Of a stretch of DNA of 64,000 nt, positions 1 to 14,935 are shown in pieces (position 1 is the stretch's first letter; each line of letters opens with the position of its first letter). Location: positions 1 to 64,000 of the forward strand of contig WFVH01000025.1 in NCBI GenBank assembly GCA_015491735.1. Direction: 5' to 3'. Under the pieces are notes generated by a model. That model did not search any database and was not told where the DNA came from. It saw nothing but the letters and a program-made list of their open reading frames with translations. The position numbers and the translations under genes were made by a program. The DNA comes from Gammaproteobacteria bacterium. GTDB taxonomy: Bacteria; Pseudomonadota; Gammaproteobacteria; Thiohalospirales; Thiohalospiraceae.

Positions 1-1
1 A

Positions 2-130
2 GAGGGGCAATCGGTGCTGCTGGAGGAGTACGCCCGGCGCATGATTACCGAAGAGGAGATGCACCAGGGAGAGGTGGACAAGATGCTGCGCACACCGGGG
101 GACGTCGCCATATTCTCCGAAGCCGGATAG
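2..130 (+). CDS. C-terminal end of a possible ferritin-like protein (partial)
   Basis: This is an open frame entering from the left edge and ending at TAG 128-130; 42 residues are visible. The tail is charged and helical and holds EEEMHQGE, an ExxH pattern of the kind used as metal ligands in ferritin-like/rubrerythrin four-helix bundles. hemP begins only 3 bases after the stop, so the two are probably co-transcribed, which fits an iron-handling role. The family call is inference from a short segment; the rest of the gene lies outside the window. Confidence 0.45.
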   Translation, partial: EGQSVLLEEYARRMITEEEMHQGEVDKMLRTPGDVAIFSEAG

Positions 131-133
131 ACC

Positions 134-319
134 ATGAACAAAACATCAGATAAAACCGTTCGCCCGGACGATACACTCCGCGAAAAACCACGACCGGGAG
201 AGTCCCGCGTATCCACAGACGCGCTTTTCAACGGTACGCGGGAGTTGATCATCGAGCATACGGGAGAGGAGTATCGCTTGCGCATCACCAGCAAGGGAAA
301 ACTGATTCTCACCAAGTAG
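134..319 (+). CDS. hemP: Hemin uptake protein HemP
   Basis: This is a 61-residue small protein. Its C-terminal half carries the HemP signature: LFNGTRELIIEH, then GEEYRLRIT and the terminal GKLILTK. HemP/HmuP-type proteins are found next to outer-membrane haem receptors and in several proteobacteria are needed for receptor expression. Here the gene lies 3 bases after a ferritin-like tail and 110 bases before a TonB-dependent receptor, the usual setting. The N-terminal half is polar and poorly conserved in the family. I did not recognise a Fur box around it. Confidence 0.9.
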   Translation: MNKTSDKTVRPDDTLREKPRPGESRVSTDALFNGTRELIIEHTGEEYRLRITSKGKLILTK

Positions 320-429
320 AACGTCAAAACAGTATACAGCAGTCGCGTCAGCCAGCCACCCCGCCTCCGGGCAAAGGTAGCCAGCCATTATTTTTTGGTT
401 CGGTACCTTTTGTTCAAGGAGGTTTTTTT

Positions 430-2436
430 GTGGGTCTTTTAGCCCTCTCAACCATATCCTTGTTGGTAGTGACTCTGGTTCTGTCTGAGGCCGCAGCTGC
501 CGAGCAGAACACCGCAGAGATCACCAGACTGCGCGACGTAGTGGTCACCGGCACCCGCACCGAGAAACCGGTGCTGGAGGTGCCGGTGCGCACCGAGGTA
601 GTAAACCGCAGGGAGATCGAGAAGACCCACGCCCGTGATCTGAAAGAGGCGCTGGAGGATGTGCCCGGCCTGCTGCTCAAGCCCATCCACGGCAAAACCG
701 GTTTCCAGGTCTGGCTGCAGGGAATCAATTCTGACCGGGTACTGGTGGTACTCGATGGCGAGCCCATCAGCCCCAGCACCGGCTCCTCGGTTGATCTCAG
801 CCAGATCGGCGCAATGGATATCGAGCGCATCGAGATTGTCAAGGGCGCCACCTCGGCACTCTACGGAAGCAACGCCATGGGGGGTGTCATTAATGTTATT
901 ACCCGCAAACCTTCGCTGCCGCAGAGCTATCAACTGAGCCTGGATGGCGGCAGCTACGGAGACAAAAACCTCAGCGGTGACTCCAGTGACATCAGCGCCC
1001 GCCGCCTGGCAGCCAATCTGGCGCTGAAACGGCCTGGCGGGTATCTGCAGCTCAACGCTGATCTGCGCGACAAGGATGGTTACACCCTCGACCCGGACAC
1101 CTTTGTTTCAGAAGGTGAGGAGGGCAGCAAAATCAACCTTAATCTGCGCCTGGCCTGGACCCCGGATGACCAGACTGAAATCTATATTCTACCGCGCTAT
1201 TACCGGGAGAATATCAGCAACAACACTCTTTCAGACCTTATCCCCGGTGTCGGCAAACTCAAAAAGAGAAAAAATGAAGATGCCAGTCGCTTCGGCACCA
1301 CACTGGGTGTTGAACGCAAACTGGATAACGGTGGCCGGTTGCGCGGCTGGCTGCTTCGAGAGAACTGGCAGGATGTCACGCAGCAGGATGTCATCGCCAC
1401 CCCGGAGATAGAGCAGCAGCGTACCGCAGAGATTGATACCTGGCGCGCCGAATTGCAGTGGGACAGACCCGTGGGTGAGAACCAGGTTCTCACTTCCGGG
1501 CTGTTGCTCGGCCAGGAGGTCATGAATCAATACCAGGGGACTGGCCGGATTCGCGCCCCCGAAGTGGATAGCGCGGAAAAACGCAACATCGAGGCCTACT
1601 TGCAGGATGACATATTTATTGGCGAACAGTGGGAGGTCGTGCCGGGAATACGTATGCAGGAGGACAGTGATTTCGGTTTCCATGTTGCGCCCAGGATCAA
1701 CGCCATGTTTACGCCAAAGTGGTTTGCCGATGTCATCACCAATGTGCGCATGGGTATTGGCCGTGGTTACCGGGTGCCAAATCTGAAAGAGCGCTTTTTT
1801 GTCTTTGATCACAGTCAATTGGGTTACATGATAATCGGCAACGACGAACTGCAACCGGAGAGTTCTGACAGCTACCAGTTAGGCATCGAATTTGCGCGAG
1901 CGAATGAATTTCATGCCGACATTACCCTGTTTCACAACCGAATCAAGAATCTCATCGACACCCGGATCAATCCCGCCAAATCCAACCCCGCGATGAACAT
2001 TTTTGATTACCAGAACTTTGCCCGCGCCATGACCCAGGGGGTTGAGATCAGTGGCAGTCGCCGTGCGGGCCGTTTCGAGATGAAAGGCAGTTATACCCTG
2101 CTCGACAGTAAAGATCGCGATACAGGGAAAACGTTGAAAGAGCGCCCCCGCCACCAGATCAAGCTGGGGGCAGACTGGTACAGCAAGGCGGGGGGAACCG
2201 TGCTGACCTTGCGGGGCGTCTACCAGAGCCGGGAGTTTTATGATGCGGAAAATCTTCTGGAGTCACCCGCCTGGACCACCTGGGATCTGAAACTGACCCA
2301 GGCGGTTGGCGACAGATTCAAGCTGTTCGGCGGCATCGACAACCTGACCGACGAGCATCGTGACCCCGATGTCCGTTACGACAGGCGGCCCGAAGCGGGG
2401 CGCTTCATCTATCTGGGGGTGCGTTTCGATGGCTGA
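430..2436 (+). CDS. TonB-dependent outer-membrane receptor, probably for haem
   Basis: The protein has 668 residues. The GTG start is supported by AAGGAGG seven bases upstream (416-422). A signal peptide covers about residues 1-23. It is followed by the plug domain with a TonB-box-like stretch (RDVVVTGTR), the plug motif VPGLLLKPIHG, and IEIVKGATSALYGSNAMGGVINVIT. The rest is a 22-strand type barrel with the FRAP/NPxL-like region around NLKERFF and NDELQPESS. It ends in aromatic LGVRFDG, near the usual barrel-terminal pattern. Such receptors import metal-porphyrins or siderophores using TonB-ExbBD energy. The HemP and HmuY-like neighbours make haem the likely ligand; the ligand itself is inferred. 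Confidence 0.88.
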   Translation: MGLLALSTISLLVVTLVLSEAAAAEQNTAEITRLRDVVVTGTRTEKPVLEVPVRTEVVNRREIEKTHARDLKEALEDVPGLLLKPIHGKTGFQVWLQGINSDRVLVVLDGEPISPSTGSSVDLSQIGAMDIERIEIVKGATSALYGSNAMGGVINVITRKPSLPQSYQLSLDGGSYGDKNLSGDSSDISARRLAANLALKRPGGYLQLNADLRDKDGYTLDPDTFVSEGEEGSKINLNLRLAWTPDDQTEIYILPRYYRENISNNTLSDLIPGVGKLKKRKNEDASRFGTTLGVERKLDNGGRLRGWLLRENWQDVTQQDVIATPEIEQQRTAEIDTWRAELQWDRPVGENQVLTSGLLLGQEVMNQYQGTGRIRAPEVDSAEKRNIEAYLQDDIFIGEQWEVVPGIRMQEDSDFGFHVAPRINAMFTPKWFADVITNVRMGIGRGYRVPNLKERFFVFDHSQLGYMIIGNDELQPESSDSYQLGIEFARANEFHADITLFHNRIKNLIDTRINPAKSNPAMNIFDYQNFARAMTQGVEISGSRRAGRFEMKGSYTLLDSKDRDTGKTLKERPRHQIKLGADWYSKAGGTVLTLRGVYQSREFYDAENLLESPAWTTWDLKLTQAVGDRFKLFGGIDNLTDEHRDPDVRYDRRPEAGRFIYLGVRFDG

Positions 2437-2604
2437 TGAACCCGGACCGCATACCCTCATGAGCAGGCTGCGGAGAGCGGGGCGTGAAAAATCAAACACA
2501 AGCACCCCTGCTCCGGTTTTTTGCGTCCTGCTCTCCACAGCTTGTTTAACGGTTTTTCTGCCTGGCAGACGATTTTTCACTATCCACAACAGGAGTAAAC
2601 AAAG

Positions 2605-3972
2605 ATGAAACCACGCAAACGGCAAATCGTTCTGTCGCTCCTCATGTCCATGGCCCTGATCGGATTGAGCGGATGTCTGCATGAAGAGAAGGATGCAGCT
2701 CCTGATCCCGAGTCCGTCCCCGATCCGGAACCTGATCCCGAACCCGACAATAGCCTCTCTCTGATTGAGCTGAATGCCACGGCAGGAGGATTCGGCGCGC
2801 AGCCGGATGACCCGGCCAACAAGTACACCTACTTCAACCTGCACACGGGAAAGGTGCTGGAGTTGACGGACGCTGAAGCGGATAACTCCACCGAATGGCA
2901 TGTCGCCTTCAAGCGCACCAGGATCAAGCTGAACGGGGGAGCATCCGGCCCCGGTTCGGTAAAAGGCGCGGTCGCCGACCGGCAGGAGGATTTCCACCTG
3001 CCCGACGGATCGCCGAATGTCCCGGTATTTCTCGCCGCCACGGCCGAAAGCGAGCTGGCGGTATTCGAGCGCGTCACCGACAGCACGGCATTGACCTTCG
3101 AAGAGGAGAACAGGGAGCCGGCGATCGAGGGAGACGGAAGCAGCGCCGGCTGGTGGCTGTACAACCCGCAAGACCACACCATAACCGCCAACAGCGGCGC
3201 CTGGTGGCTGATTCGATCCGCCAGGGGGGACAGCTACGCCAGGATGCGCGTAACCCATATCGCACAGGCGGACAAGGAGGTCACGCTGGAGCTGTTCGTC
3301 CAGGGCAAGGATGACGACCGCTTCTCCGCCACCCCCGTCACCTGGATCGCGGCCATTGGCGCCGAAGGCGGCAGCAGGTGTTACGACTTCGACAACACCT
3401 CCCAGGTGGACTGCACCGGCCTGGGCGCAGGCAGCTGGGACATCATGGTGGATATCTCCGGCCGGGACTGGAATATCTGGACCAACGGAACGGTCAAGGG
3501 GTTTGGCAAGGGAGGCGCATTCGGAAAGATCGATGAGGCCGACATCGGCAACTACCCGGGCGGCACCGTAACCGCCGGGGGAGAGGATATCGCCGCCCGC
3601 TATCAGGCCGACCGCAGCGGACTGTTCAACAACAACAGCTGGTACGCCTACAGCCTGCAGGGCAACAGCAGGCTCTGGCCCAACTACCGCGTCTATGCCA
3701 TCGACACCGGCACGGCGAGGTACAAGCTCCAGATCATCGGCTACTACAACACCGGCGGGATCAGCGGTCACATCACCCTGCGCTACGCGCCCATCCCCGG
3801 CTCCGGGACGGTCAACGTCACCCTCGAGGAGTGGGGCATCTCGCTGGACAAAACCGCGGTCAAGGCGGGTAAGGTCAGCTTTCGGGTAACCAACAAGGGG
3901 CCGGATGACACCCACGAGCACCGTATCGGGAGAACAAGGATACCGTCGATCTGCCGCGCCGCCCCGGCATGA
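2605..3972 (+). CDS. HmuY-like haem-binding lipoprotein with truncated cupredoxin tail
   Basis: The protein has 455 residues. A lipoprotein signal peptide ends in the lipobox LSGC (Cys24), followed by an acidic Pro-rich linker (PDPEPDPEPD). Residues about 50-395 resemble HmuY-family proteins (tyYFNLHTG, WHVAFKRT, then alternating beta segments ending HITLRYAP). HmuY proteins are surface haemophores that hand haem to a TonB receptor, consistent with the gene upstream. From about residue 400 the sequence changes to a sulfocyanin/plastocyanin-like start (EEWGISLDKTAVKAGKVSF, VTNKGPDDTHEH). It then loses family resemblance and stops. The copper-site half of that cupredoxin is missing. At the same place another frame opens into a multicopper oxidase end, so the C-terminus looks like a deletion junction. 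Confidence 0.75.
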   Translation: MKPRKRQIVLSLLMSMALIGLSGCLHEEKDAAPDPESVPDPEPDPEPDNSLSLIELNATAGGFGAQPDDPANKYTYFNLHTGKVLELTDAEADNSTEWHVAFKRTRIKLNGGASGPGSVKGAVADRQEDFHLPDGSPNVPVFLAATAESELAVFERVTDSTALTFEEENREPAIEGDGSSAGWWLYNPQDHTITANSGAWWLIRSARGDSYARMRVTHIAQADKEVTLELFVQGKDDDRFSATPVTWIAAIGAEGGSRCYDFDNTSQVDCTGLGAGSWDIMVDISGRDWNIWTNGTVKGFGKGGAFGKIDEADIGNYPGGTVTAGGEDIAARYQADRSGLFNNNSWYAYSLQGNSRLWPNYRVYAIDTGTARYKLQIIGYYNTGGISGHITLRYAPIPGSGTVNVTLEEWGISLDKTAVKAGKVSFRVTNKGPDDTHEHRIGRTRIPSICRAAPA

Positions 3973-4205
3973 GCGGAACCAGCACAACGGTCAGAGTAGC
4001 CGTCCGCTTTGCGCCCGGCCCGGGCAGAACGGTGGCGGAAACCGTTGCCTGGGGCGGAGCAGATGCCATCGTCAACGCCGATCCCGCCGGGAACCTGAGA
4101 GGCCGCTCCGGCGGCTGGCTGTTCCACTGCCACATCCTGCCTCACGCCGCGCGGGGCATGATGTCCTACGTCGAGGTACGGGCAAACGGCGGGGAGAACC
4201 CATGA
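3909..4205 (+). pseudogene. C-terminal remnant of a multicopper oxidase
   Basis: A frame open from 3909 to TGA 4203-4205 overlaps the end of the HmuY-like gene in a different phase. It encodes ENKDTVDLP, then TTVRVAVRFAPGPGR, and ends GGWLFHCHILPHAARGMM. The HCHxxxHxxxxM pattern is the type 1/type 3 copper-ligand block that closes multicopper oxidases, and the preceding text matches the last beta strands of that domain. No start codon with a ribosome site and no N-terminal domains are present, so it is a remnant. It most simply arose by a deletion between the cupredoxin domain of the upstream gene and this oxidase, leaving the two halves out of frame. Confidence 0.65.
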
Positions 4206-4227
4206 AACTGTTTTCGGAGCATTCCCC

Positions 4228-4599
4228 ATGACGACACACACACCCTTTTTCCAGGGAAGAGACCGTACGGGCAGGGATGCCCACCCTTTAACCAGATCCG
4301 GATCGCTGGACGGAGGAGGGAAACCAGCGGATCCGGAAGAGCAGAATGTACCGCCGCCCGGAACACGCATGCCACCGCCCCGGGAAATCGAGGAAAACCT
4401 GGAGCTGTGCATCCGCAGATATCAGCGAAACCGCCGGTACGAACGGCTTGCCGGGAAAATCACCGAACTGCTGGCGGCACTGCTCGCCCACCCTGAAGCG
4501 GACGAGGAGATCCCCCGCTGGAAGCTGTGCCAGTATCGGCGCATGGCGAAACGGTGGCGCTGGATCGCATCCGGGCAGGGTGGAACCGGCAGGTTGTGA
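4228..4599 (+). CDS. Hypothetical basic protein in the haem cluster
   Basis: This 123-residue protein is not recognised. The first 45 residues are Gly/Pro-rich and probably disordered. The C-terminal two thirds is helical and basic (ENLELCIRRYQRNRRYERLA, then KLCQYRRMAKRWRWIAS), which looks like a conserved small domain rather than chance coding. It has no signal peptide or membrane segment. It starts 22 bases after the multicopper-oxidase remnant and is followed by a hairpin with a T-run. It may be a cytoplasmic accessory factor of the cluster; function unknown. Confidence 0.55.
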   Translation: MTTHTPFFQGRDRTGRDAHPLTRSGSLDGGGKPADPEEQNVPPPGTRMPPPREIEENLELCIRRYQRNRRYERLAGKITELLAALLAHPEADEEIPRWKLCQYRRMAKRWRWIASGQGGTGRL

Positions 4600-4631
4600 G
4601 CGGCAATGAAACACCGGTAATAACAATTTCC

Positions 4632-4693
4632 CCCGCTTCCCACTGTTTGAAGCACCGTTCCTCCGTTTGGTCCGGGAAGCGGGTTTTTCTTTT
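4632..4693 (+). terminator. Hairpin with T-run, terminator or attenuator
   Basis: A 10-bp perfect stem (CCCGCTTCCC at 4632-4641, GGGAAGCGGG at 4674-4683) is followed directly by TTTTTCTTTT. The loop is long (32 bases). It sits between two genes on the same strand, 20 bases before the Shine-Dalgarno of the next one. It could therefore end the upstream transcript or attenuate expression of the two genes downstream. Confidence 0.6.
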
Positions 4694-4713
4694 GATACAT
4701 AAGGAGGTTGAGC

Positions 4714-4983
4714 ATGACAAACGAGCGCATAGCGGAACTGGACCGACTGGCCAGCGATGCCATCCGGGAGTGCCGGATCCAGGGGCAGCCGGACAACCCT
4801 GTCCTGGAGTTCTGGAAAGGGGTCAAGATGGTGGTGGATGAGTTGAAGCGGGAAAGGGCGAGCCGCCAGGATGGCGGGAAAAGCGAACCCACGTTCGTGG
4901 GCAGAGGTTCAAGCCAGAACATGTACCCATCCGTCGTTGCCGGCGCTTCGGAAAGATCTATTGAGAAAGGGGTGAAAAGATGA
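4714..4983 (+). CDS. Hypothetical small protein coupled to the CbiX-like gene
   Basis: This 89-residue protein is not recognised. The ATG at 4714 is preferred over the TTG at 4708 because AAGGAGG (4701-4707) lies six bases upstream. The N-terminal 50 residues form a predicted helical segment (MTNERIAELDRLASDA, LEFWKGVKMVVDELKRE); the C-terminus is polar and low in structure. There is no signal peptide. Its stop codon overlaps the start of the exported CbiX-like gene (ATGA at 4980-4983), so the two are translationally coupled and probably act together. Confidence 0.6.
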   Translation: MTNERIAELDRLASDAIRECRIQGQPDNPVLEFWKGVKMVVDELKRERASRQDGGKSEPTFVGRGSSQNMYPSVVAGASERSIEKGVKR

Positions 4984-6677
4984 GTTTGAGCAAGATGTGG
5001 CCACAGTTCGTCCTTCAGGCAGGCATATTCTGCGTAATGCTCCTTTTTGCGCACTACTGCCAGGCGGGAGCCGCAAAAACCGGGTTTCTGGTGATGGCCC
5101 GGGATCGCGGCTTTCTCGGTAATCAGGAGATTGTCGCAATAGTGGAGCAGTTCCGGCAGGCGTACCCGGCCCGGCTGGCTCTGGTCGGATACAACCAGCC
5201 AGGAGTAAAAACCAGTTATGACGAGTACATTCATCGGGCGGTAAGTGACCTTGAAAGAGTGGGGGCAGAGAAGATCATCGCAATCCCCTTTTTCCTCTCC
5301 GATGCCGATCCCGTCTATAAACGGTACCGGGATCGGGCAAGGGAGTTTGCGGAATCTGCCACCCTCGAGTGGGCGCCAGCCATGGCGGAGAGCTATCTGA
5401 CCGCCCAGATCCTGCTCGATCGGGTGGAGGAGTTGAGTACCGACCCGACTCAAGAACGCCTGATAATAGTCGGCACCGGCGCAATGGATGAAGCCAGCCA
5501 CCAAGAGATAAAAAAGGATATAGACGCGTTGCTTGGCGAAATTACCGACCGCCACCGGTTCGAGGAGATCGCTGTTCACGTCTATTATGATCAAAATGCA
5601 ACTGATGCTGCGGAGAAAAACAGGGCGATCGACGAGCAGATAGTTCGCACTGCGGCAAAACGCGGGCACGCCCTGCTAGTGCCCTTTTTCATTGGCGTCA
5701 AATTCGATCAGCGTATGTCCCGCGAGCACTGGCTGGCGCAGCGGTTCGCGGAGTTCAGAATCGACGTGGGCAAATCATTGCTGCCCCACTCTGACCTGCT
5801 GACCTGGCTCGAAAAAACCGCAAACCGTCACTCACCCGCATCGATGGATCAGATCGGTGTGTTGATCATGCCCCATGGCTCCATTCAACCCTACAATGAC
5901 GGACTGGAAACGGTCATCACACCACTGCGAAAGCGCTACCGGGTGGAAGTTGCGCCCGGCATGGGTGACCCGCTGATTCTGGGACAGGCGGTACGGAAGC
6001 TGGAGCGGGACGGAATCAAACGAATCATCTTCATCCGCATGTACGCCATGGAGGAGAGCATGAAGGCGAAAACCGACTATATCCTCGGGCTGTCCAGGCA
6101 GCCCCCGGGCCACCATCACGGATCACTGCCGCCGCGAATCCGCAGCAGCGCGGTTTTCTACCCCTTTGGCGGCTATGAAGAAGACCCTCTCATTGCAAAG
6201 ATTCTTGAGGAGCGTATTCTGGAGATCAGTGAACAGCCCAAAAATGAAACTGTCATCCTGCTTGCCCACGGAGCCGGGGATGATGAGACAGACAAACGCT
6301 GGATCGACATCATCAACGGTAACATCGAGCAAATACGCAAGAAGCTTCCCCCGTTCAGATCCATCGAGGCCATGACCATGCGCGAAGACTGGCCGGACAA
6401 AAGGAGACAGTCTCTGGAAAAGATCCGGAGGCGGATCGAAAAAGGCAATCAAAACGGTGGCCGCGTACTGATTGTCTCGAACCGCCTGTATGGCTCCGGC
6501 CCTTACCAGCGCCTGCTCGGGGAGGCCGGCTTCAAAATGAACCACCAAGGGCTGGTGCCCCACCCCAACCTGACGCGCTGGCTGGAGAAAGGCATTGAAC
6601 AGACTCTCCATTCAGCACTGCTGCCAGCAGCCTTGCCGGAGAAGAAGGCGGGTGATACTACCAGAAATGTGTGGTAG
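4980..6677 (+). CDS. Exported protein with four CbiX-like (chelatase-fold) domains
   Basis: The protein has 565 residues. An N-terminal signal sequence (hydrophobic about 10-28, then CQAGAA) sends it to the periplasm. Four successive blocks follow the sirohydrochlorin cobalt/iron-chelatase (CbiX/SirB) plan: about residues 34-135 (FLVMARDRGF), 160-270 (IIVGTGAMDE), 288-375 (VLIMPHGSIQPYNDGLETVI) and 420-520 (VILLAHGAGDDETDKRW). Only blocks three and four keep the catalytic-type HG. Canonical CbiX is cytoplasmic, 120-300 residues, and inserts metal into a tetrapyrrole. An exported, duplicated version beside HemP, a TonB receptor and an HmuY-like lipoprotein suggests a periplasmic tetrapyrrole-binding, metal-inserting or metal-removing role. 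That role is inference. Confidence 0.75.
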   Translation: MSLSKMWPQFVLQAGIFCVMLLFAHYCQAGAAKTGFLVMARDRGFLGNQEIVAIVEQFRQAYPARLALVGYNQPGVKTSYDEYIHRAVSDLERVGAEKIIAIPFFLSDADPVYKRYRDRAREFAESATLEWAPAMAESYLTAQILLDRVEELSTDPTQERLIIVGTGAMDEASHQEIKKDIDALLGEITDRHRFEEIAVHVYYDQNATDAAEKNRAIDEQIVRTAAKRGHALLVPFFIGVKFDQRMSREHWLAQRFAEFRIDVGKSLLPHSDLLTWLEKTANRHSPASMDQIGVLIMPHGSIQPYNDGLETVITPLRKRYRVEVAPGMGDPLILGQAVRKLERDGIKRIIFIRMYAMEESMKAKTDYILGLSRQPPGHHHGSLPPRIRSSAVFYPFGGYEEDPLIAKILEERILEISEQPKNETVILLAHGAGDDETDKRWIDIINGNIEQIRKKLPPFRSIEAMTMREDWPDKRRQSLEKIRRRIEKGNQNGGRVLIVSNRLYGSGPYQRLLGEAGFKMNHQGLVPHPNLTRWLEKGIEQTLHSALLPAALPEKKAGDTTRNVW

Positions 6678-6731
6678 TTGAATCCACGGGGGAGAACCGG
6701 TAACTGTCAGAGCAAGTCTGAACTACTACAA

Positions 6732-7214
6732 CTAACAGCTTGCAATCTCCAGTTGTAACCGTTTCACCAGCTGCTCCACTTTTGCCATGGTTGCCAGATA
6801 CGCCTTGCGGAATGCTTCTTGCTCCTTCTGTACCTCTGCATGGATGCTTGCCTGTTTGCGATGCTCCGTCTCCAGTCTTTCCCGTTTGACCGGATCTTTT
6901 TCTCCCCGGGCCATGACGGCAGCCAGCCGTTTTTCATGCTCCTTCAAGCGGTTTTCATGATCCTCGATAACATCGGACAGATGAGTGGCAACATCACGAT
7001 AATCGGGAAGTTCTCTCTCCAGTTGATACAGTATCGCTTCGATACGGCGCTGTTTTCTTTTCCAGCCGACGATATCTTTCTTCCATTTTCTGTGCTCTCT
7101 ATGCCAAGTTGCATACTCGGCCTGCATCGCCTTGATCTGCGCAGTCAGCGCGGCTTGCGCCACGAGCAGCTGAGTCACGGGTGATTGCCATGGTATTGCC
7201 AGCTGTTTACCCAT
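6732..7214 (-). CDS. Hypothetical coiled-coil protein
   Basis: The 160-residue form is counted from the ATG at 7214, which is preceded by a GGGGGGAGAGAG ribosome site; an upstream in-frame start would add 25 residues. After a short N-terminus (MGKQLAIPWQSPVTQLL) the whole protein is charged and helical, with long Glu/Lys/Arg-rich heptad-like stretches typical of coiled coils. It has no membrane segment or signal. It lies 71 bases downstream of a general-stress-type gene on the same strand and converges on the CbiX-like gene. Family not recognised. Confidence 0.5.
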   Translation of the reverse strand: MGKQLAIPWQSPVTQLLVAQAALTAQIKAMQAEYATWHREHRKWKKDIVGWKRKQRRIEAILYQLERELPDYRDVATHLSDVIEDHENRLKEHEKRLAAVMARGEKDPVKRERLETEHRKQASIHAEVQKEQEAFRKAYLATMAKVEQLVKRLQLEIASC

Positions 7215-7285
7215 CTCTCTCCCCCCGGATAAACCGGTCATTGAAACCGCCGGTGCATGAACCGGATTCCGATCGGTCCGGTTCC

Positions 7286-7810
7286 TCAACCGGGAAAGAG
7301 CCGCACCGACTCAGCTCTGCCCCTGGATACAATCTTTTGCCAATCGCTCTCATCCCGCTTGCCATACTGCAGCAGCAACAGTGTCTTGCCATCCATTATG
7401 GATTGATGCAGATAGGCCAGATCCTCACCGGGTATACCCATGCGCCGCAAGGCGATGGTCAGATGCGTAACGGCCGCCGCACCGCTCATCAATCCGCTGC
7501 CCACAACGGCTCCGGCAATCAGCTCGGCAAAAGGACCCAGCACCAGCAATGGACCAACGCCGGGAATCACGAACAATCCCATCGCTCCGGCAAGCAAGCC
7601 GCCCAATGCGCCCCACACAGCACCCTGTTCGCCCCAAACCTTGAAGCGCTCACGCTCACTTTCATAGGAAACGCCGAGAAAATCGTCTCCTTGACCTCGG
7701 GCGCGCTGCAACAGGGAGATTTTGTCCATGGGAAAATCATGCTCAATCAGCCGCTCAGCCACCGCGTGTGCGTGCTGCGGATTTTCAAAAACGGCAGCGA
7801 GTATGGTCAT
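7286..7810 (-). CDS. General stress protein 17M-like / DUF1269-type membrane protein
   Basis: The protein has 174 residues. The N-terminus (TILAAVFENPQHAHAVAERL, FPMDKISLL) matches the alpha/beta start of general-stress-protein 17M (YflT)-type domains. A central Gly-rich hydrophobic segment (about 65-110: WGALGGLLAGAMGLFVIPGVG, then ELIAGAVVGSGLM) resembles glycine-zipper hairpins seen in DUF1269-like proteins. The C-terminal part (MGIPGEDLAYLHQSIMDGKTLLLL) is again soluble. Proteins of this build are usually stress-induced and membrane-associated, and their biochemical role is unknown. Confidence 0.65.
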   Translation of the reverse strand: MTILAAVFENPQHAHAVAERLIEHDFPMDKISLLQRARGQGDDFLGVSYESERERFKVWGEQGAVWGALGGLLAGAMGLFVIPGVGPLLVLGPFAELIAGAVVGSGLMSGAAAVTHLTIALRRMGIPGEDLAYLHQSIMDGKTLLLLQYGKRDESDWQKIVSRGRAESVRLFPG

Positions 7811-7952
7811 CGCCGTAATGCTCCTCCATTTCCTGAGCTACCTACCCCGGTCGACCTTCTTCGTTATATGGATTCGGGATCGCTGTTTTTCAAGAGGCGA
7901 AAAGAAAAAGCAACCACTCTGCGAACTGCAAATTTTCAGGGTTACAAGAAAA

Positions 7953-8104
7953 GTAACTATTCAGCATCGTATGAAACAAGCCGGTAACTGTTCAGATTGC
8001 CCCTGAAATCCGTCAGTTCAAGGCGAAAAATGGGAGTTTACGCGTGTAAATGACCATTTTTCAACGCAGAAATGGCGGATTTCAGGGGTGAGCTGAATAG
8101 TTAC
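7953..8104. mobile_element. IS66-type miniature element, complete copy with 8-bp duplication
   Basis: A 152-bp non-coding element with ends GTAACTATTCAGC and GCTGAATAGTTAC. It is flanked by the direct repeat CAAGAAAA (7945-7952 and 8105-8112). Inside, a second GTAACTGTTCAG begins about 30 bases in and opens a long imperfect palindrome that fills the rest of the element, centred on GCGT. GTAA ends with 8-bp target duplications are characteristic of IS66-family elements. It lies in the 313-base gap between a stress gene start and the ubiB stop; apart from this element the gap shows nothing I recognise. Confidence 0.9.
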
Positions 8105-8123
8105 CAAGAAAAAACCATCCCGC

Positions 8124-9809
8124 TCACTCCCGCCTGCCGCGCCAGATGGATACCCATAACCAGGCAAGCCCCAGACAGGCAGCGATAAAACCCAGCACCA
8201 CGAACAGGGAGTACCCCAGCACCGTTGGCCCATGCTCCGGAGCAGTAAGAACAATCGAGGTGCCAATAATCAGCGCCGCCGTCACCATACCTACCGAGAT
8301 GCGGCTGGCGGCGCGGTCCAACTGATGACCGAAGTGATCGAGGCGGGTGACATCCACATGAACCTGCAGCGCGCCGCGCCGCGCCATGCGCAGCAGCCGG
8401 CGGATGTCGCGGGGCAACCCGGTCAGCAGCTCGAAACCCCCGGAGAGGTTGCTCCACCCCTGCTTCACCAGGCTGGAAGGCAGGTAGCGTTTCATGATGA
8501 TGCGCTGCAGAAACGGAGTTATCTCGGCCACGATATTGAAATCCGGATCCAGCTTGCGGCCCAGCCCATCCAGAGAGACAAATGCCTTCAGCAGCATGGA
8601 GAGGTCGGGGGGCAGGCTGAGCTGGTGGTCACGGAACAAAGCCATCAGATCAGCCAGCATGGCGGTAAAATCCAGCTGTTTCAGCGTCAGTCCGTGATAG
8701 GAATCGAGAAAAGCCTCCAGCTCATCGCTGAGCCGGTCGGTATCGACCGCGCTCGTCCCGCCGGTCCATTCCTGCAGTACATCGATGATATTGTCGGTCT
8801 CGCGCATCATCATCCCGTACAGCAGATCCACCACCTGCTCCCGGCGCAGTTTTGACAGGCTGCCGGTCATGCCAAAGTCGATAAAGGCGATCCGGTTTTC
8901 CGGCAGATAGAACAGGTTGCCCTGGTGTGGATCCGCGTGGAAAAAACCGTCTACCAGCGTCATCTGCAGAATGGCGTTGACACCCCGCCGCGCCAACAGC
9001 GGGCGCTCCAGCCCGGCCGCCTCGATGGCTTCGAGATCCCTCGCCGGGATACCCTCGATATACTGCTGGACGTTGAGGCGCCTGCAGGTCCACTGCCAGT
9101 ATATTTTTGGAATGATGATATCGCGCCGACCGGCGAAATTGGCGGCGACCCGCTCTGCTGATCGGGATTCGTTTTCCAGATTGAGCTCCCGGCGCAGCGA
9201 GCGGCTGAACTGGCGCACCATTGCCACCGGATGGTAGCGGCGCAGCTCGGGGATCTCCGCCTCGGCAATCTCGGCAAAACGGGCCAGCAGATGCAGATCG
9301 GCGTTGACCGTCTTTTCGATACCGGGGCGGCGGATTTTGAGCACTACCCGGGCGCCATCGCTCAGCTCTGCCCGGTGAACCTGGGCGATGGAGGCGGCAG
9401 CCAGAGCATCTCTCTCCAGGCGCGGAAATATCTCATCCGGCGGCTGGCCCAAATCCTCCTCCAGTTGCGCGTACAGCGCTTCAAACGGAACCGGAGGAAC
9501 CTCATCCTGCAGCTTCTCGAACTCATCGATCCACTCCGGCGGAAACAGATCGATCCGGGTGGCCATCACCTGCCCCAACTTGACGAAGGTCGGCCCCAGC
9601 TCCTGCAGCACGACGCGCATCCGTTCCGGTGCGGTGGTTTCCTCCACTTCACCACTCTCCCCCCAGTGCAACACCCTGCCCGCCTGCTCCAGAAACCGGC
9701 CGATTCCCAGCTTGCGCACCAACTCACCCATGCCGTGACGAATCAGCACCGAAGCGATGGTGTGCAGACGCCCCAGATCGCGGGCCGCACCCAGCGTTTC
9801 CCAGAACAT
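8124..9809 (-). CDS. ubiB: UbiB/AarF-family (ABC1) atypical kinase
   Basis: The protein has 561 residues. It shows the family hallmarks: KxGQ (FVKLGQ, residues 75-80), the Ala-rich loop ALAAASIAQVH (135-144) replacing the Gly-rich loop, VVLKIRRPG with the conserved Lys, ADPHQGNLF and IDFGMTG for metal/ATP binding. Two membrane helices close the C-terminus. UbiB-type proteins are membrane-bound ATPases required for coenzyme Q biosynthesis, possibly by extracting lipid intermediates. It is not in a ubiE-ubiJ-ubiB operon but overlaps by one base a DUF6781-like gene, so it may be a second AarF paralog rather than the housekeeping UbiB. Confidence 0.85.
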   Translation of the reverse strand: MFWETLGAARDLGRLHTIASVLIRHGMGELVRKLGIGRFLEQAGRVLHWGESGEVEETTAPERMRVVLQELGPTFVKLGQVMATRIDLFPPEWIDEFEKLQDEVPPVPFEALYAQLEEDLGQPPDEIFPRLERDALAAASIAQVHRAELSDGARVVLKIRRPGIEKTVNADLHLLARFAEIAEAEIPELRRYHPVAMVRQFSRSLRRELNLENESRSAERVAANFAGRRDIIIPKIYWQWTCRRLNVQQYIEGIPARDLEAIEAAGLERPLLARRGVNAILQMTLVDGFFHADPHQGNLFYLPENRIAFIDFGMTGSLSKLRREQVVDLLYGMMMRETDNIIDVLQEWTGGTSAVDTDRLSDELEAFLDSYHGLTLKQLDFTAMLADLMALFRDHQLSLPPDLSMLLKAFVSLDGLGRKLDPDFNIVAEITPFLQRIIMKRYLPSSLVKQGWSNLSGGFELLTGLPRDIRRLLRMARRGALQVHVDVTRLDHFGHQLDRAASRISVGMVTAALIIGTSIVLTAPEHGPTVLGYSLFVVLGFIAACLGLAWLWVSIWRGRRE

Positions 9810-10483
9810 CAGTGGTTGTCGTCCTGCGGCTCCCGTTTTCCCTCCGCAAGAGCGATCAGGGCCTCCCCCGCTCCGGCCAGAACGCCGCGGGCAATCTGGC
9901 TGATGCGGCTGGCTGCCGCCTCCCCTGCCCCGGCGGTATCCGCACCCAGCTCCCGCAGCCGGTTCTGCAGGCTTTCCATGTTTTCGGCAACGTGCCGGCC
10001 CACGCTGGTGCCACTGTTGTGTGCATGGGCTGCCAGATCTTCGGCGATGCCGCGGACAATCTCTCCACCGTTTTTGGCGGTGCGCTGCAGGGTTTCGACA
10101 AAGATATCCTCCAGGCTGTCCAGATCATTCACCGAGCGCTTCAGTTCACCGGAACTGAACTCGTTTATCCTTCCTGCCGCCTCTTCGATAGCCAGCCGGA
10201 AGGCATCCGCCGCCTGAATCAGCGCCTGCTCGAGACCGGCCGCAGTTTCGCTCAGACTCTCCTTCAGCCGCTCTCCCCCTTTTGCCACCGCATCACCGGC
10301 GCCCGCCATCACCGCTTCGGCGACCGATGTTATACGCTCCCTGTCCAACTCACCTTTGCCCAGCGCCTTCAGCGTGATGTCCCGAACCGCTGCCTGCACA
10401 TCTTCATTTTTCTCGACCGCCTGCTGCACGATGTTGCGCACCTGCTGCAGATCACTGCTGGTTTCGTCTGACATTGTATTCAA
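9809..10483 (-). CDS. DUF6781-like helical protein
   Basis: The protein has 224 residues and is almost entirely helical, Ala/Glu-rich, with no membrane segment or signal. It resembles the DUF6781 family (QQVRNIVQQAVEKNEDVQAA, then amphipathic repeats with ALIQAADAFRLAIEEAAGRI). Proteins of this sort look like apolipoprotein/phasin-type amphipathic helix bundles that could coat membranes or granules; that comparison is structural impression only. Its stop overlaps the start of the ubiB-like gene (TGATG), so the two are translationally coupled. Confidence 0.6.
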   Translation of the reverse strand: MNTMSDETSSDLQQVRNIVQQAVEKNEDVQAAVRDITLKALGKGELDRERITSVAEAVMAGAGDAVAKGGERLKESLSETAAGLEQALIQAADAFRLAIEEAAGRINEFSSGELKRSVNDLDSLEDIFVETLQRTAKNGGEIVRGIAEDLAAHAHNSGTSVGRHVAENMESLQNRLRELGADTAGAGEAAASRISQIARGVLAGAGEALIALAEGKREPQDDNH

Positions 10484-10496
10484 CTCCTCTGGTGCT

Positions 10497-10694
10497 TAGT
10501 ACTCCGTCAAGGTAACAAATCAGGATTCAGTATCCATGGCGGCGTTGATGGAATACATCCCTGTATTCCACCCCTTCGGGGTCGCTTCGCGCTCCCAATC
10601 CACTCCGGTGGATTGGTGCGCCTCTTGCAACGGACGACGGCCATTTGCTGCGAGGAGCGCCTTGCCCCGGACGCTGGCCGGCAGTCGGCGCCTC
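10497..10694. repeat. Structured repeat with one end of the second miniature-element family
   Basis: The 10497-10513 stretch (TA then GTACTCCGTCAAGGT) matches the end of the IS630-type miniature element found at 33385 and 55177, but no matching right end is seen. The body is a chain of hairpins: GGAATACA/TGTATTCC, ACCCC-TTC-GGGGT and AATCCAC-TCCG-GTGGATT. No coding is evident. It fills the gap between the H+-ATPase stop (10695) and the start of the DUF6781-like gene, and may be a truncated or hybrid mobile repeat. Confidence 0.5.
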
Positions 10695-13334
10695 TCAAAT
10701 CAGTGCTGCATCCTTGCGGCGCAGAAAGCGGTACGTGGCCATCTTTATCATGTCATTGAACAGGAACCAGACCAGTGCATAACCCCACATCCATGCCGCA
10801 TACTCCCAGCCGATAGGGGTAATGAGGAAACCATACACCGCTATCAGCGTGCCCAGAATCTCGGTTCCAAATGTGGCGAAAAACAGCAGTGGCGCCGGGA
10901 AAGGCCGCTGCCAGAACCACCCCTCCACCCGTGTTATATAGAGGGTACTGTGTCCGGCGATAATCAGCTTGAGGAACAGCAAGCTCTGAATGATCTCCTC
11001 GGGGAAAGCCATCCGCTGCAGAATATAGAACAGCAAAAACGATGAAACCACCCCGGACACCCCCAGCACGGTGGCTACGGTCAGCAGCTCCGGCATCTTC
11101 CAGCGTACCGGTTTTTTGTCCACCCTGGTGCGATCGTAGGCGATGGCGAGAATGGGAATATCGTTGAGCAGCGCCAGCAAAATAATCATCAGTGCGGTGA
11201 GTGGGTAGAAGTTGAATACCACGATGCTCAACGCCATAAACAGGATGATGCGGATGGTCTCGGCGATGCGGAAAATGGCGTAGCTCTTCATCCGCTCGAA
11301 GGTGATGCGCGCCTGTTTTACCGCCTCGTTGATCACATCCAGGCCAGGAGCGGTCAGAATGATGTCCGCGGCGGCGCGCGCCGCGTCGGTAGCATTGGAT
11401 ACCGCAATGCCGCAGTCCGCCTTGCGCAACGCCGGCGCATCGTTCACCCCGTCACCGGTCATTGCCACGATGTGGCCACCTTTCTGCAGCGTATCAACAA
11501 TGCGGTATTTGTCTTCCGGCACCACCTCGGCAAAGATATCCACCTCCTCGATCATCTCGATAATGGCCGACTCATGGGTATGGATAAATTCGCGCTCCAG
11601 CAGCGTAGTGTCATACATCTCCTGCACGCTGTCCATCACCGCTCTGGCAAACTGCTGCGCCTCGTTGCGGGGCACCTCCGGCTTGAGGCGCTGGTAGATG
11701 GCCGCAGCCAACACCTCCGTCAGCCCCAGCAGCTCGTTACCGGCGCTGCCGGAGAGCTGGCTGGAGTTCATGGCGTGCGGTTTCAGACCCAGCAGATGGC
11801 CAATCTCCCGGGCGATGGCGCTGTTGTCGCCGGTCACCATCTTTACTGTAACGCCATAGCCGCGCATCTCCTCGATGACCCGGGCCGAGTCCTTGCGCGG
11901 TGGATCGTATAACGGAATCAGGCCGATCAGTTCCAGCGGCTTGCCATCCTTCTGGCGACCAACCGCCAGCGTACGGTAGCCCTTGGAGGCCAGCAGATCC
12001 ACCATCTGGTTAACACTCCAGATCTCCCGCTCCGGCAGCTCGGCCATCTCCAGCAGCACCTGGGCAGCGCCCTTTACCGCAACAAAGCGCTCCCCGTCCT
12101 TTTCGATCACAGCCTCGGTCCGCTTGCGGATGGGGTCAAATGGCGCAAAGTCGATCTGACGCCAGGAGCGCCAATCCAGTTCGGGGAAGTGCTCATCGAT
12201 GTAGTGGAAGATGGGCAGCTCGATGGGATCACGATTCTCCAGCCGGGAGGCCAGCGCCGCGACCAGAAACAGCTCCTGCTCCTGATGACTCCCCAGCATC
12301 AGCGGTGATGCCACTTTCATCTCGTTGCGGGTCAGCGTGCCGGTCTTGTCGGAGCAGAACACATCCATTCCGGCCAGCTCTTCGATGGCGGTCAGGCGGC
12401 TGACAATCGCCTTGCGCCGCGCCAGATTAACCGCACCCACCGCCATGGTCACCGACAGCACCGCCGGCAACGCCACCGGGATCGCCGCCACGGTCAGCAC
12501 CATGGCGAAACGGGCGATTTCGATGAAATCTTCATTGCGGAACAGCGCCACCATGATGATAATCAACACCAGCACCAGTGTAATCAAAATGAGAAAATTG
12601 CCGATCTGAATCACCATCTTCTGGAAGTGGCTGCGCTCTTCCAGACTGGCTTTGGCCACCAGCGCAACCACCGAGTGGAAGTTGGTGCGGGTTCCGGTAT
12701 TGACCACCACCGCCAGCATCTCTCCCTGTTTGGCGATGGTGTTGGCGTAGGCCACTTCACTGGTTTTTTTGCTGACCGGCAGTGACTCTCCGGTGAGCGC
12801 GGACTGGTCTACCAGCAGATAGTCCCCCTGCACCAGCTGCACATCCGCTGGCACGATGTCACCGATCTTGAGTTTGATGATGTCACCGGGAACCAGCTCG
12901 CGGGCGGCAACGGTGTGATACCTGCCATCGCGCATCACGATCACCTCGGTGGCCAGGCGCTGCTTGAGCGCCTTCAGCGCATTGAGGGCCCGATGCTCCT
13001 GAAAGAAGTCCAGGCCGGCGTTCACCAGCAGCATGATGGAAATGATGGTGAAATCTTCCCATTTCTGAACCAGCGCGGAGAGAATCGCCGCAATCTCGAT
13101 CATCCACGGGATCGGCCCCCAGAAACGGCGCATCACCCGGTGCCAGAGCGGCTCCTCCTTTTCCCTGATCTCGTTGTAACCGTAACGGGCCAGGCGCCGG
13201 CGCGCCTCCTCATCACCCAGCCCTTTTTCCATGTCGACCTGCAATTCCTGGAGGGTTTTTTCTACGCTTTGCCGGGCGTAATCATCCGTCGACTTGAGAT
13301 GTTGACCCTCCCCGGGCGTTTTCCTGCTCATCAT
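10695..13334 (-). CDS. P-type H+-exporting ATPase (P3A, plasma-membrane type)
   Basis: The protein has 879 residues. Cation-ATPase N-terminal domain (about 22-80), TGES actuator loop (181-184), the helix-4 motif PVALP (286-290), phosphorylation site SDKTGTLT with Asp329, and the hinge MTGDGVNDAPALRKADCGIA are all present. Ten membrane segments are expected and the hydrophobic pattern fits. The sequence is closest in feel to plant/fungal-type proton pumps, which exist in some acid- or salt-adapted bacteria and archaea. It would pump protons outward using ATP. A short internal insertion between GLTEVLAAAIYQRLKPEVPR and IHTHESAIIEMIEEV is noticeable near the nucleotide-binding domain end. The substrate is assigned by family only. 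Confidence 0.88.
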   Translation of the reverse strand: MMSRKTPGEGQHLKSTDDYARQSVEKTLQELQVDMEKGLGDEEARRRLARYGYNEIREKEEPLWHRVMRRFWGPIPWMIEIAAILSALVQKWEDFTIISIMLLVNAGLDFFQEHRALNALKALKQRLATEVIVMRDGRYHTVAARELVPGDIIKLKIGDIVPADVQLVQGDYLLVDQSALTGESLPVSKKTSEVAYANTIAKQGEMLAVVVNTGTRTNFHSVVALVAKASLEERSHFQKMVIQIGNFLILITLVLVLIIIMVALFRNEDFIEIARFAMVLTVAAIPVALPAVLSVTMAVGAVNLARRKAIVSRLTAIEELAGMDVFCSDKTGTLTRNEMKVASPLMLGSHQEQELFLVAALASRLENRDPIELPIFHYIDEHFPELDWRSWRQIDFAPFDPIRKRTEAVIEKDGERFVAVKGAAQVLLEMAELPEREIWSVNQMVDLLASKGYRTLAVGRQKDGKPLELIGLIPLYDPPRKDSARVIEEMRGYGVTVKMVTGDNSAIAREIGHLLGLKPHAMNSSQLSGSAGNELLGLTEVLAAAIYQRLKPEVPRNEAQQFARAVMDSVQEMYDTTLLEREFIHTHESAIIEMIEEVDIFAEVVPEDKYRIVDTLQKGGHIVAMTGDGVNDAPALRKADCGIAVSNATDAARAAADIILTAPGLDVINEAVKQARITFERMKSYAIFRIAETIRIILFMALSIVVFNFYPLTALMIILLALLNDIPILAIAYDRTRVDKKPVRWKMPELLTVATVLGVSGVVSSFLLFYILQRMAFPEEIIQSLLFLKLIIAGHSTLYITRVEGWFWQRPFPAPLLFFATFGTEILGTLIAVYGFLITPIGWEYAAWMWGYALVWFLFNDMIKMATYRFLRRKDAALI

Positions 13335-13426
13335 TCATCACCTTGGCAGCGTGCAATCAGTCACCGTTTGCGCTATAAATCTGATATTGGGTTAGTAACT
13401 TCCCGTTGCAACCTCTGTAAAAAAAC

Positions 13427-14935
13427 ATGAATGTGCTGAAACTGCGCCATGTCGCCATTGACACCCATAAGGAAAATGTAGCCTATCTGCACCGGGACTG
13501 TACGGTCTATCGCACCGAGGGGTTTCAAGCCCTGAGCAAAATAGAGATTCACAAGGCAGAGGATGGTGCGCCGGTCATTGCCGTGCTGAATGTGGTCGAT
13601 GATGAGTCTATCACCGCGCCGGGCCAGTTGGGTTTGTGCGAGCAGGCGTTCCGGCAGCTGGGGCTGGAGGAAGGCGCACCGCTGAGGGTCACCCACGCCA
13701 AACCGCCGCTGTCACTCAAGGCGGTTCACCGGAAAATAGCCGGGGAGCGGCTGGACTTCGATGATTATCTGGCCATTTCAAGGGACATTGTCGCCAACCG
13801 TTACTCCAAAATCGAAATGGCCGCCTTTCTGGTTGCCTGTGCCGAAACAGGGATGGAGCGCGAGGAGGTGCTCTATCTGACGCGCGCCATGATCGAGACC
13901 GGCGAAAGACTGGAGTGGGGGGAGCCGCTGGTGGCGGACAAACACTGCATCGGGGGTGTCCCGGGCAACCGTACCACCATGGTGGTGGTCCCCATCGTCG
14001 CCGCACACGGCATGTTGATGCCAAAGACCTCGAGCCGCGCCATCACCTCCCCGGCCGGCACTGCGGATACCATGGAAGTGCTGGCTCGCGTCAAACTGGA
14101 GATGGAGCAGCTTCACGAGATCGTGCGCCGGCAGCGCGGTTGCCTGGTGTGGGGCGGAACAGCAAGGCTGGCTCCGCTCGATGATATCCTCATTTCGGTC
14201 GAACGCCCCCTGTCGCTGGACTCCTCGGGCCAGATGACCGCCTCCATTCTGTCCAAGAAAATCGCTGCAGGTTCTACCCATCTGCTAATCGATATCCCCG
14301 TCGGCCCCACCGCCAAGGTGCGCAGCAGCCTCACCGCGATGCGGTTGCGCAAGCTGTTCGAGTATGTGGGCGACCGCCTGGGTCTGCATCTGGATGTCAT
14401 CCTGACCGATGGCCGTCAACCCGTCGGGCGCGGCATCGGCCCGGTACTGGAGGCCCGCGATGTGATGGATGTGCTGAACAACCGGCCCGACGCCCCCACC
14501 GATCTGCGGGAAAAATCGTTGCAACTGGCCGGCAGAATACTGGAATTCGATCCGGATGTCCGCGGTGGACAGGGATACATCATTGCACGCAATATCCTCG
14601 ACTCCGGCCGGGCGCTGGAGAAGATGCAGGCTATTGCCGAGGCACAAGGCGCAAATGAAAAGCCACCCCAACTGGGGCATCTGCGCCACAAGGTGGTGGC
14701 TCCGCGGGGCGGCCGCGTCGAATCGATCGACAATCTGCAGATGGCGCATATCGCCCGGCTGGCCGGCGCACCACTGGACAAGGGCAGCGGCGTCGATCTG
14801 CACAAAAAGGCTGGAGATCCGGTCGAGGCGGGTGAACCGCTGTACACCATCTATGCCGAATTTCCTTCAGACTTCCAGTTTGCCCGGGAGGCGGCCGCGA
14901 ATATGAGCGGCTATCAAATCGGATCCCCCCCATGA
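13427..14935 (+). CDS. Type-2 thymidine phosphorylase / AMP phosphorylase homolog
   Basis: The protein has 502 residues. Three regions fit the family: an extra N-terminal barrel (about 1-90) absent from classical DeoA, the helical and alpha/beta phosphorylase core with [17 protein letters not shown] and [18 protein letters not shown] (phosphate and nucleoside binding), and a C-terminal domain after about 410. The added N-terminal domain is typical of the putative thymidine phosphorylase 2 group that includes archaeal AMP phosphorylase, which converts NMP plus phosphate to base plus ribose-1,5-bisphosphate. It is coupled to a PRPP-synthetase-like gene by an ATGA overlap, which points to phosphoribose metabolism. 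Which nucleotide it uses cannot be told from sequence. Confidence 0.85.

Follow-up and report, generated by a model that had tools for sequence, protein, structure and literature searches.

An exported, duplicated class II chelatase-like protein at TonB receptor-linked haem and iron uptake loci as a candidate periplasmic haem de-chelatase

The window, by which we mean the whole 64,000-nucleotide stretch of gammaproteobacterial DNA analysed here, carries at its start a haem uptake cluster that encodes an exported four-lobed protein built from a duplicated two-lobed class II chelatase-like unit (Table 1). Its relatives share the export segment and two invariant histidines of the C-terminal unit, and in most of them the gene lies close to that of a TonB-dependent receptor. 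On our analysis the chances are about even that the protein is a periplasmic haem de-chelatase, which would remove iron from imported haem.

Table 1 Features of the haem uptake cluster and of the four-lobed chelatase-like protein, in window positions
Feature	Position	Strand	Basis or remark
HemP, haemin uptake protein	134..319	+	Pfam hemP 65 bits, E 5e-18
TonB-dependent receptor, haem/B12/siderophore class	430..2436	+	Pfam beta-barrel and Plug
HmuY-like protein, C-terminal cupredoxin-like domain shortened by deletion junction near 3920	2605..3972	+	Pfam HmuY 58 bits, E 1.5e-15
Multicopper oxidase C-terminal remnant	3969..4205	+	Pfam Cu-oxidase_2 E 2.9e-6
123-aa ORF, function unassigned, genus-restricted	4228..4599	+	phmmer matches in G006 and G007 only
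Hairpin and T-run, terminator- or attenuator-like	4633..4694	+	terminator scan; ~20 nt 5' of 89-aa gene
89-aa genus-specific protein	4714..4983	+	ATGA overlap with chelatase-like gene (4980..6677)
Exported four-lobed (duplicated two-lobed) class II chelatase-like protein, 565 aa	4980..6677	+
N-terminal signal segment, residues 1-29	4980..5066	+	predicted helix 6-29 and hydrophobic stretch, present in all relatives
Block 1 (N unit, lobe 1)	5073..5447	+	invariant DRGxxGN in place of HG
Block 2 (N unit, lobe 2)	5448..5834	+	HG His gone, G167 retained
Block 3 (C unit, lobe 1)	5847..6230	+	PHG with invariant His299, codon 5874-5876, aligned to active-site HG of CfbA/CbiX
Block 4 (C unit, lobe 2)	6237..6620	+	AHG with invariant His430, codon 6267-6269; EDW motif

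Against Pfam CbiX the window protein scored 19 bits over residues 48-109, below the 22-bit gathering cut-off, and against Pfam Ferrochelatase it scored 14 bits. Five four-block relatives scored 24-50 bits against CbiX (PF01903), above the cut-off, as did most four-block relatives tested, and the family assignment therefore does not depend on the window protein alone. A phmmer search of PDB sequences with the single window sequence gave no match, and a profile of the family matched SirB and CfbA, with His299 falling on the HG of CfbA. AlphaFold modelled the whole protein with a pLDDT of 87.3 and a pTM of 0.85, and the C unit with values of 93.6 and 0.89. When the C unit was compared with the PDB by Foldseek, the best fold match was SirB (probability 1.00, TM 0.70-0.73; PDB 5zt7 and 6m25); periplasmic CbiK of Desulfovibrio vulgaris (TM 0.64; PDB 2xvz), FetB of Porphyromonas gingivalis (TM 0.60; PDB 9b86), other CbiK proteins and HemH were also matched, and the likeness to sugar- and amino-acid-binding proteins was weak (TM 0.3-0.45). 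These models predict the two-lobed Rossmann-like class II chelatase fold of the CbiX/SirB/CbiK/HemH superfamily, as the original prediction had supposed. For the N unit, the predicted fold is drawn from the whole-protein model, from homology to the C unit and from an alignment of blocks 1 and 2 to SirB.

The four CbiX-like blocks first seen behind a signal peptide are real, although they are not four independent domains strung together. In hhalign comparisons using profiles from 33 near-full-length members, the N-terminal half matched the C-terminal half with a probability of 99.5% (E 1.5e-22), block 1 matched block 3 (96.7%) and block 2 matched block 4 (98.1%), while blocks 1 and 2 gave no match to each other. 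Thus, the repeat unit is two-lobed and the protein is a duplicated two-lobed chelatase unit; this pairing rules out four independent tandem CbiX domains. A hydrophobic N-terminal export segment was present in all 33 members, with a lipobox-like sequence in two. The leader and the duplicated unit do not fit the profile of a cytoplasmic SirB/CbiX biosynthetic enzyme, which has no leader and one or two lobes.

The distribution of the HG motif over the blocks, kept in the third and fourth and lost from the first and second, was also as originally described, and it extends to the relatives. His299-Gly300 of block 3 is invariant (His in 33/33), as is His430-Gly431 of block 4 (His in the 32 of 32 relatives with a letter at that position). 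Block 2 retains only the glycine. The HG position of block 1 is occupied by the DRGxxGN loop, and because this loop is itself invariant, block 1 has been remodelled and has not merely decayed. The position of the second CbiX/SirB metal ligand (His74/76) is Ser360 in the window protein and histidine in 17 of 33 relatives, the alignment of this loop being approximate; the replacement could mean binding without catalysis. Further invariant or near-invariant positions are Met246, Met328, Asp330, Arg353, Glu469-Asp470-Trp471 and Arg502. In the member from G320 (L031 8088-9917), blocks 3 and 4 are separated by a His-rich insertion, HAMHGQDEHDQGHDHDPAHG, possibly a metal-binding loop.

In the window, HemP, the TonB-dependent receptor and the HmuY-like gene all lie 5' of the chelatase-like gene on the plus strand (134-6677), which agrees with the cluster originally outlined. 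HmuY and a TonB receptor stand here in one cluster, as in HmuR/HmuY-type haem uptake loci. The receptor scored 193.6 bits against the NCBIfam TonB-B12 model and 189.5 bits against TonB-hemin, both below the cut-off. The C-terminal part of the HmuY-like protein is homologous to a stand-alone cupredoxin in the genus mate G006. Compared with another genus mate, G007, the window has a deletion junction within 3811-4205, where the HmuY-like gene runs from its cupredoxin portion into the C-terminal part of the multicopper oxidase in a different reading frame; G007 has both genes at full length as far as its contig extends (L012 1-1332 and 1334-2971), and the second encodes a whole 545-aa multicopper oxidase. 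The junction could be genuine in the window genome or an assembly error. A Pfam search with the 123-aa ORF returned no match. Directly 5' of HemP, the contig start truncates an ORF (2-130) whose remaining C-terminal end resembles, by eye, that of bacterioferritin-family proteins.

In a scan of positions 1-14000 for Fur boxes, where the sequence 5' of HemP is interrupted by the contig end, no 19-bp site exceeded 14 of 19 matches, and the highest-scoring site was distant from the cluster. A riboswitch search of positions 1-9000 found no Rfam family at gathering and three sub-threshold matches only. Just 3' of the chelatase-like gene, at 6701-6757, there is a weak match to Rfam psRNA2 (E 0.012, 24 bits against a gathering score of 65).

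The interval to which the original prediction was assigned, 4714-6677, holds both of its ORFs but covers two genes, the chelatase-like one starting at 4980. The ATGA coupling to an 89-residue partner proved correct in the window, yet phmmer found homologues of this protein in G004, G006 and G007 only, all within the genus; two of these, G006 and G004, have a cupredoxin gene between it and the chelatase-like gene. A conserved partnership of the two proteins is thereby ruled out beyond the genus. The hairpin upstream of the 89-aa gene is common to the genus mates (alignment with G006 and G007). It is possibly a terminator or attenuator; its folding energy was no better than that of shuffled sequences (z -0.64).

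The iron or haem uptake setting, originally proposed for this one cluster, recurs in other families and in another phylum. In 25 of 33 loci the four-lobed gene has a TonB-dependent receptor no more than 8 kb away, and five of the eight loci without one are interrupted by contig ends. When the comparison was limited to the 12 loci flanked by 8 kb or more on either side and with a Plug count for the genome, a receptor was observed in 11, where the per-genome counts of Plug domains predict 0.87 (p ~7e-13, a value that is indicative only because related genomes are not independent). The recurrent neighbours are TonB/ExbBD, HmuY, PepSY, Fur, and bacterioferritin or multicopper oxidase. The commonest order in Nitrospirota is MacAB-like ABC genes, TonB, the four-lobed gene, the receptor, an exported two-lobed CbiX and a PepSY_TM-like gene, with bacterioferritins frequent; both canonical histidines (H63 and H133) are present in 10 of 10 aligned Nitrospirota copies of this two-lobed partner. 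The two-lobed gene was seen between the receptor and the PepSY_TM-like gene in L016 (13780-14778), and also in L070-L073 and L085-L089. In G936 the order is ExbB-ExbD-TonB, the four-lobed gene, receptor and HmuY; in G320 it is HemP-TonB-ExbB-ExbD-cytochrome c/FTR1, receptor and the four-lobed gene, with a bacterioferritin-like gene, SCO1 and a multicopper oxidase farther out.

HemP is found at the locus in the window and in G320, and HmuY adjoins the four-lobed gene in two clades of two phyla. HmuY was present in eight of 27 genomes searched, all eight of which also carry the four-lobed gene, seven of them on the same contig (the contigs of the eighth, G006, are short). An apparent HmuY in G979 was rejected: the match was to the cupredoxin part of the query, and a dedicated HmuY search found none. 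The linked receptors of G940 and G320 scored above the cut-off for haem receptors and that of G950 near it; those of G131, G1012 and G888 were siderophore-like. The predicted folds are those of chelatases and the family does not occur consistently away from haem genes, the two points on which the original prediction had staked itself.

The family is found mainly in Nitrospirota, with scattered members in Proteobacteria. In the window genus, four of eight genomes (G000, G004, G006 and G007) carry the gene, the G004 copy being read as two overlapping pieces. Eight of 369 genomes sampled from the class of the window carry it when two-lobed and partial matches are included, and the full-length gene occurs in ~19 of 296 Nitrospirota genomes. 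Methyloversatilis, Nitrospira and Manganitrophaceae MAGs also have it, as do three Candidatus Manganitrophus plasmid records, where it is annotated 'hypothetical protein'. A tree places the window protein in a gammaproteobacterial clade, apart from a Manganitrophaceae-type clade and from a large clade of Nitrospirota; further proteobacterial members are more distant, and the deep joins are unsure because some branches are long. Exported two-lobed relatives occur in G376 and G734. G376 has three that resemble the C unit (L034 7918-8967; L035 7529-8638 and 9241-10413), two of them with His-rich stretches directly behind the leader.

SirB and CbiX are cytoplasmic biosynthetic enzymes of one or two lobes with a pair of histidines, and class II chelatases normally insert metal. 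CbiK-P of D. vulgaris, for which a role in haem transport has been proposed, is an oligomer that holds haem between its subunits. DR2241 of Deinococcus radiodurans is, to our knowledge, not four-lobed, and we know of no report that it is exported or encoded in a haem locus. With SirB and CbiX the window protein shares the Pfam family and the active-site HG histidine as well as the fold; it differs in being exported, in having four lobes and in the replacement of the second histidine. Like CbiK-P it is a class II chelatase-type protein of the periplasm, though a double and not a single unit. DR2241 (PDB 2jh3) resembles it in being multi-domain with a matching chelatase-like fold. IhtB/FetB of P. 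gingivalis, an exported CbiK-like lipoprotein encoded in a locus with a TonB receptor, is believed to strip haem of its iron (PMC10913741); according to a 2026 review, FetB produces Mn-protoporphyrin (PMC13402209). IhtB/FetB likewise combines an exported class II chelatase fold with a TonB-receptor iron or haem locus, but it consists of one two-lobed unit, whereas the window protein has two homologous units in one chain, and the companion genes differ; the similarity between the family profile and the IhtB/FetB sequence is marginal (E 0.059). HmuS of the Bacteroides hmu loci, a class I chelatase relative, is an established haem de-chelatase (PMC12583661). It too adjoins HmuY and a TonB haem receptor; unlike the window protein, with its class II fold, HmuS is CobN-like, membrane-bound and NADH-dependent. 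No CobN match to the window protein was found in Pfam or NCBIfam, and no sequence relation to HmuS was seen. In its likely function the window protein would be an analogue of IhtB/FetB, of CbiK-P and, through convergence, of HmuS.

What was originally called an undescribed system is new in part: single-unit exported chelatases at TonB-linked haem loci are already known from IhtB/FetB, and the four-lobed form is annotated 'hypothetical protein'. The family stands apart from IhtB/FetB and HmuS in its fused double unit, its remodelled N unit, the phyla in which it occurs and its companion genes. A literature search on CbiX, TonB receptors and Nitrospira found no title or abstract describing it among open-licence papers. 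We tentatively suggest, with somewhat less than even confidence, that it is an unrecognised family of double-unit class II chelatases working in reverse in the periplasm, taking iron out of haem without opening the ring. It would be a counterpart of HmuS by convergence, with HmuY-linked branches of its own, in Nitrospirota (including Nitrospira) and Proteobacteria.

The export signal, the chelatase fold and the setting in haem loci together point to a periplasmic location and to a tetrapyrrole delivered by the receptor, and the family probably handles imported haem there. Since some receptors are siderophore-like and that of the window scores slightly better as a B12 than as a haemin receptor, haem is only a putative ligand for the family as a whole. 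In the mechanism that we propose, the neighbouring TonB receptor would carry haem over the outer membrane, assisted by the HmuY-like protein. The N unit, having lost both HG histidines, probably has a structural or binding role. In the C unit, His299 and His430, one per lobe, would face one cleft, on the model of known class II chelatases, and haem held in this cleft would most likely lose its iron there. The freed iron, possibly handled first by the locus-encoded cupredoxin or multicopper oxidase, would then enter through an ordinary importer, FeoB in the window genome and others elsewhere.

The protein may instead bind haem without acting on it, as a periplasmic chaperone or buffer that takes haem from the receptor and hands it on, unaltered, to a carrier in the inner membrane or to the maturation of cytochromes. 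The N unit without its HG histidines and the serine at position 360 would suit this role, FetB was deposited as 'Heme-binding protein', and in the ten Nitrospirota loci with a separate exported two-lobed CbiX, that protein, with its canonical histidines, could be the catalyst. The two invariant histidines of the C unit, on the other hand, resemble an active site, and about half of the members have kept the second histidine. The import genes of the carrier genomes also bear on this reading. A FecCD match above cut-off, in most cases a strong one, was found in 11 of 13 member genomes tested, and inner-membrane import of haem or a siderophore is therefore possible in other members. In the window genome, rated 100% complete, a domain search found no FecCD permease and FTR1 was not found; haem oxygenase (PF01126) was absent from all 13 member genomes, that of the window included. 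FTR1 was ruled out as a general exit for the iron, being present in G320 only. Of the member genomes searched, only that of the window yielded FeoB, whose sole copy there lies on the same contig, ~64 kb 3' of the cluster (G000 contig C25 70937-71095). With FecCD, FTR1 and PF01126 absent and FeoB present, periplasmic iron removal followed by import of the free ion fits the window organism better than inward transfer of haem, and the shuttling of haem to an inner-membrane permease, one of the options originally offered, becomes the less likely one here. This argument is limited to the window organism and does not extend to the whole family, since most other member genomes have FecCD and FeoB was not found in them. 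Overall, we regard a chaperone as unlikely, though by no means negligible.

It is improbable that the family serves siderophore or ferric-iron uptake, its bilobal fold acting as a substrate-binding protein for iron or an iron chelate with no tetrapyrrole involved. The siderophore-type receptors linked to three members, the PepSY_TM proteins and multicopper oxidases that are common neighbours and the weak Foldseek likeness to sugar- and amino-acid-binding proteins would be explained in this way, but HmuY, HemP and haem-type receptors stand at several loci, and chelatases, not binding proteins, are the top fold matches. That the protein inserts or exchanges a metal (Fe, Co or Mn) in a scavenged porphyrin, in keeping with the usual direction of class II chelatases and with the product described for FetB, is very improbable beside neighbours that are iron-uptake genes (TonB, Fur, bacterioferritin and FTR1) and not tetrapyrrole-salvage genes.

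The haem de-chelatase reading bears on how iron is released from haem without haem oxygenase, a question answered only recently and for Bacteroidota only, by HmuS. The family suggests that in Nitrospirota and Proteobacteria a second, unrelated enzyme class may release haem iron, or at least handle haem, in the periplasm. It offers a testable function for proteins annotated 'hypothetical' and gives a name to a recurrent cluster of TonB, four-lobed chelatase, receptor, two-lobed chelatase and PepSY.
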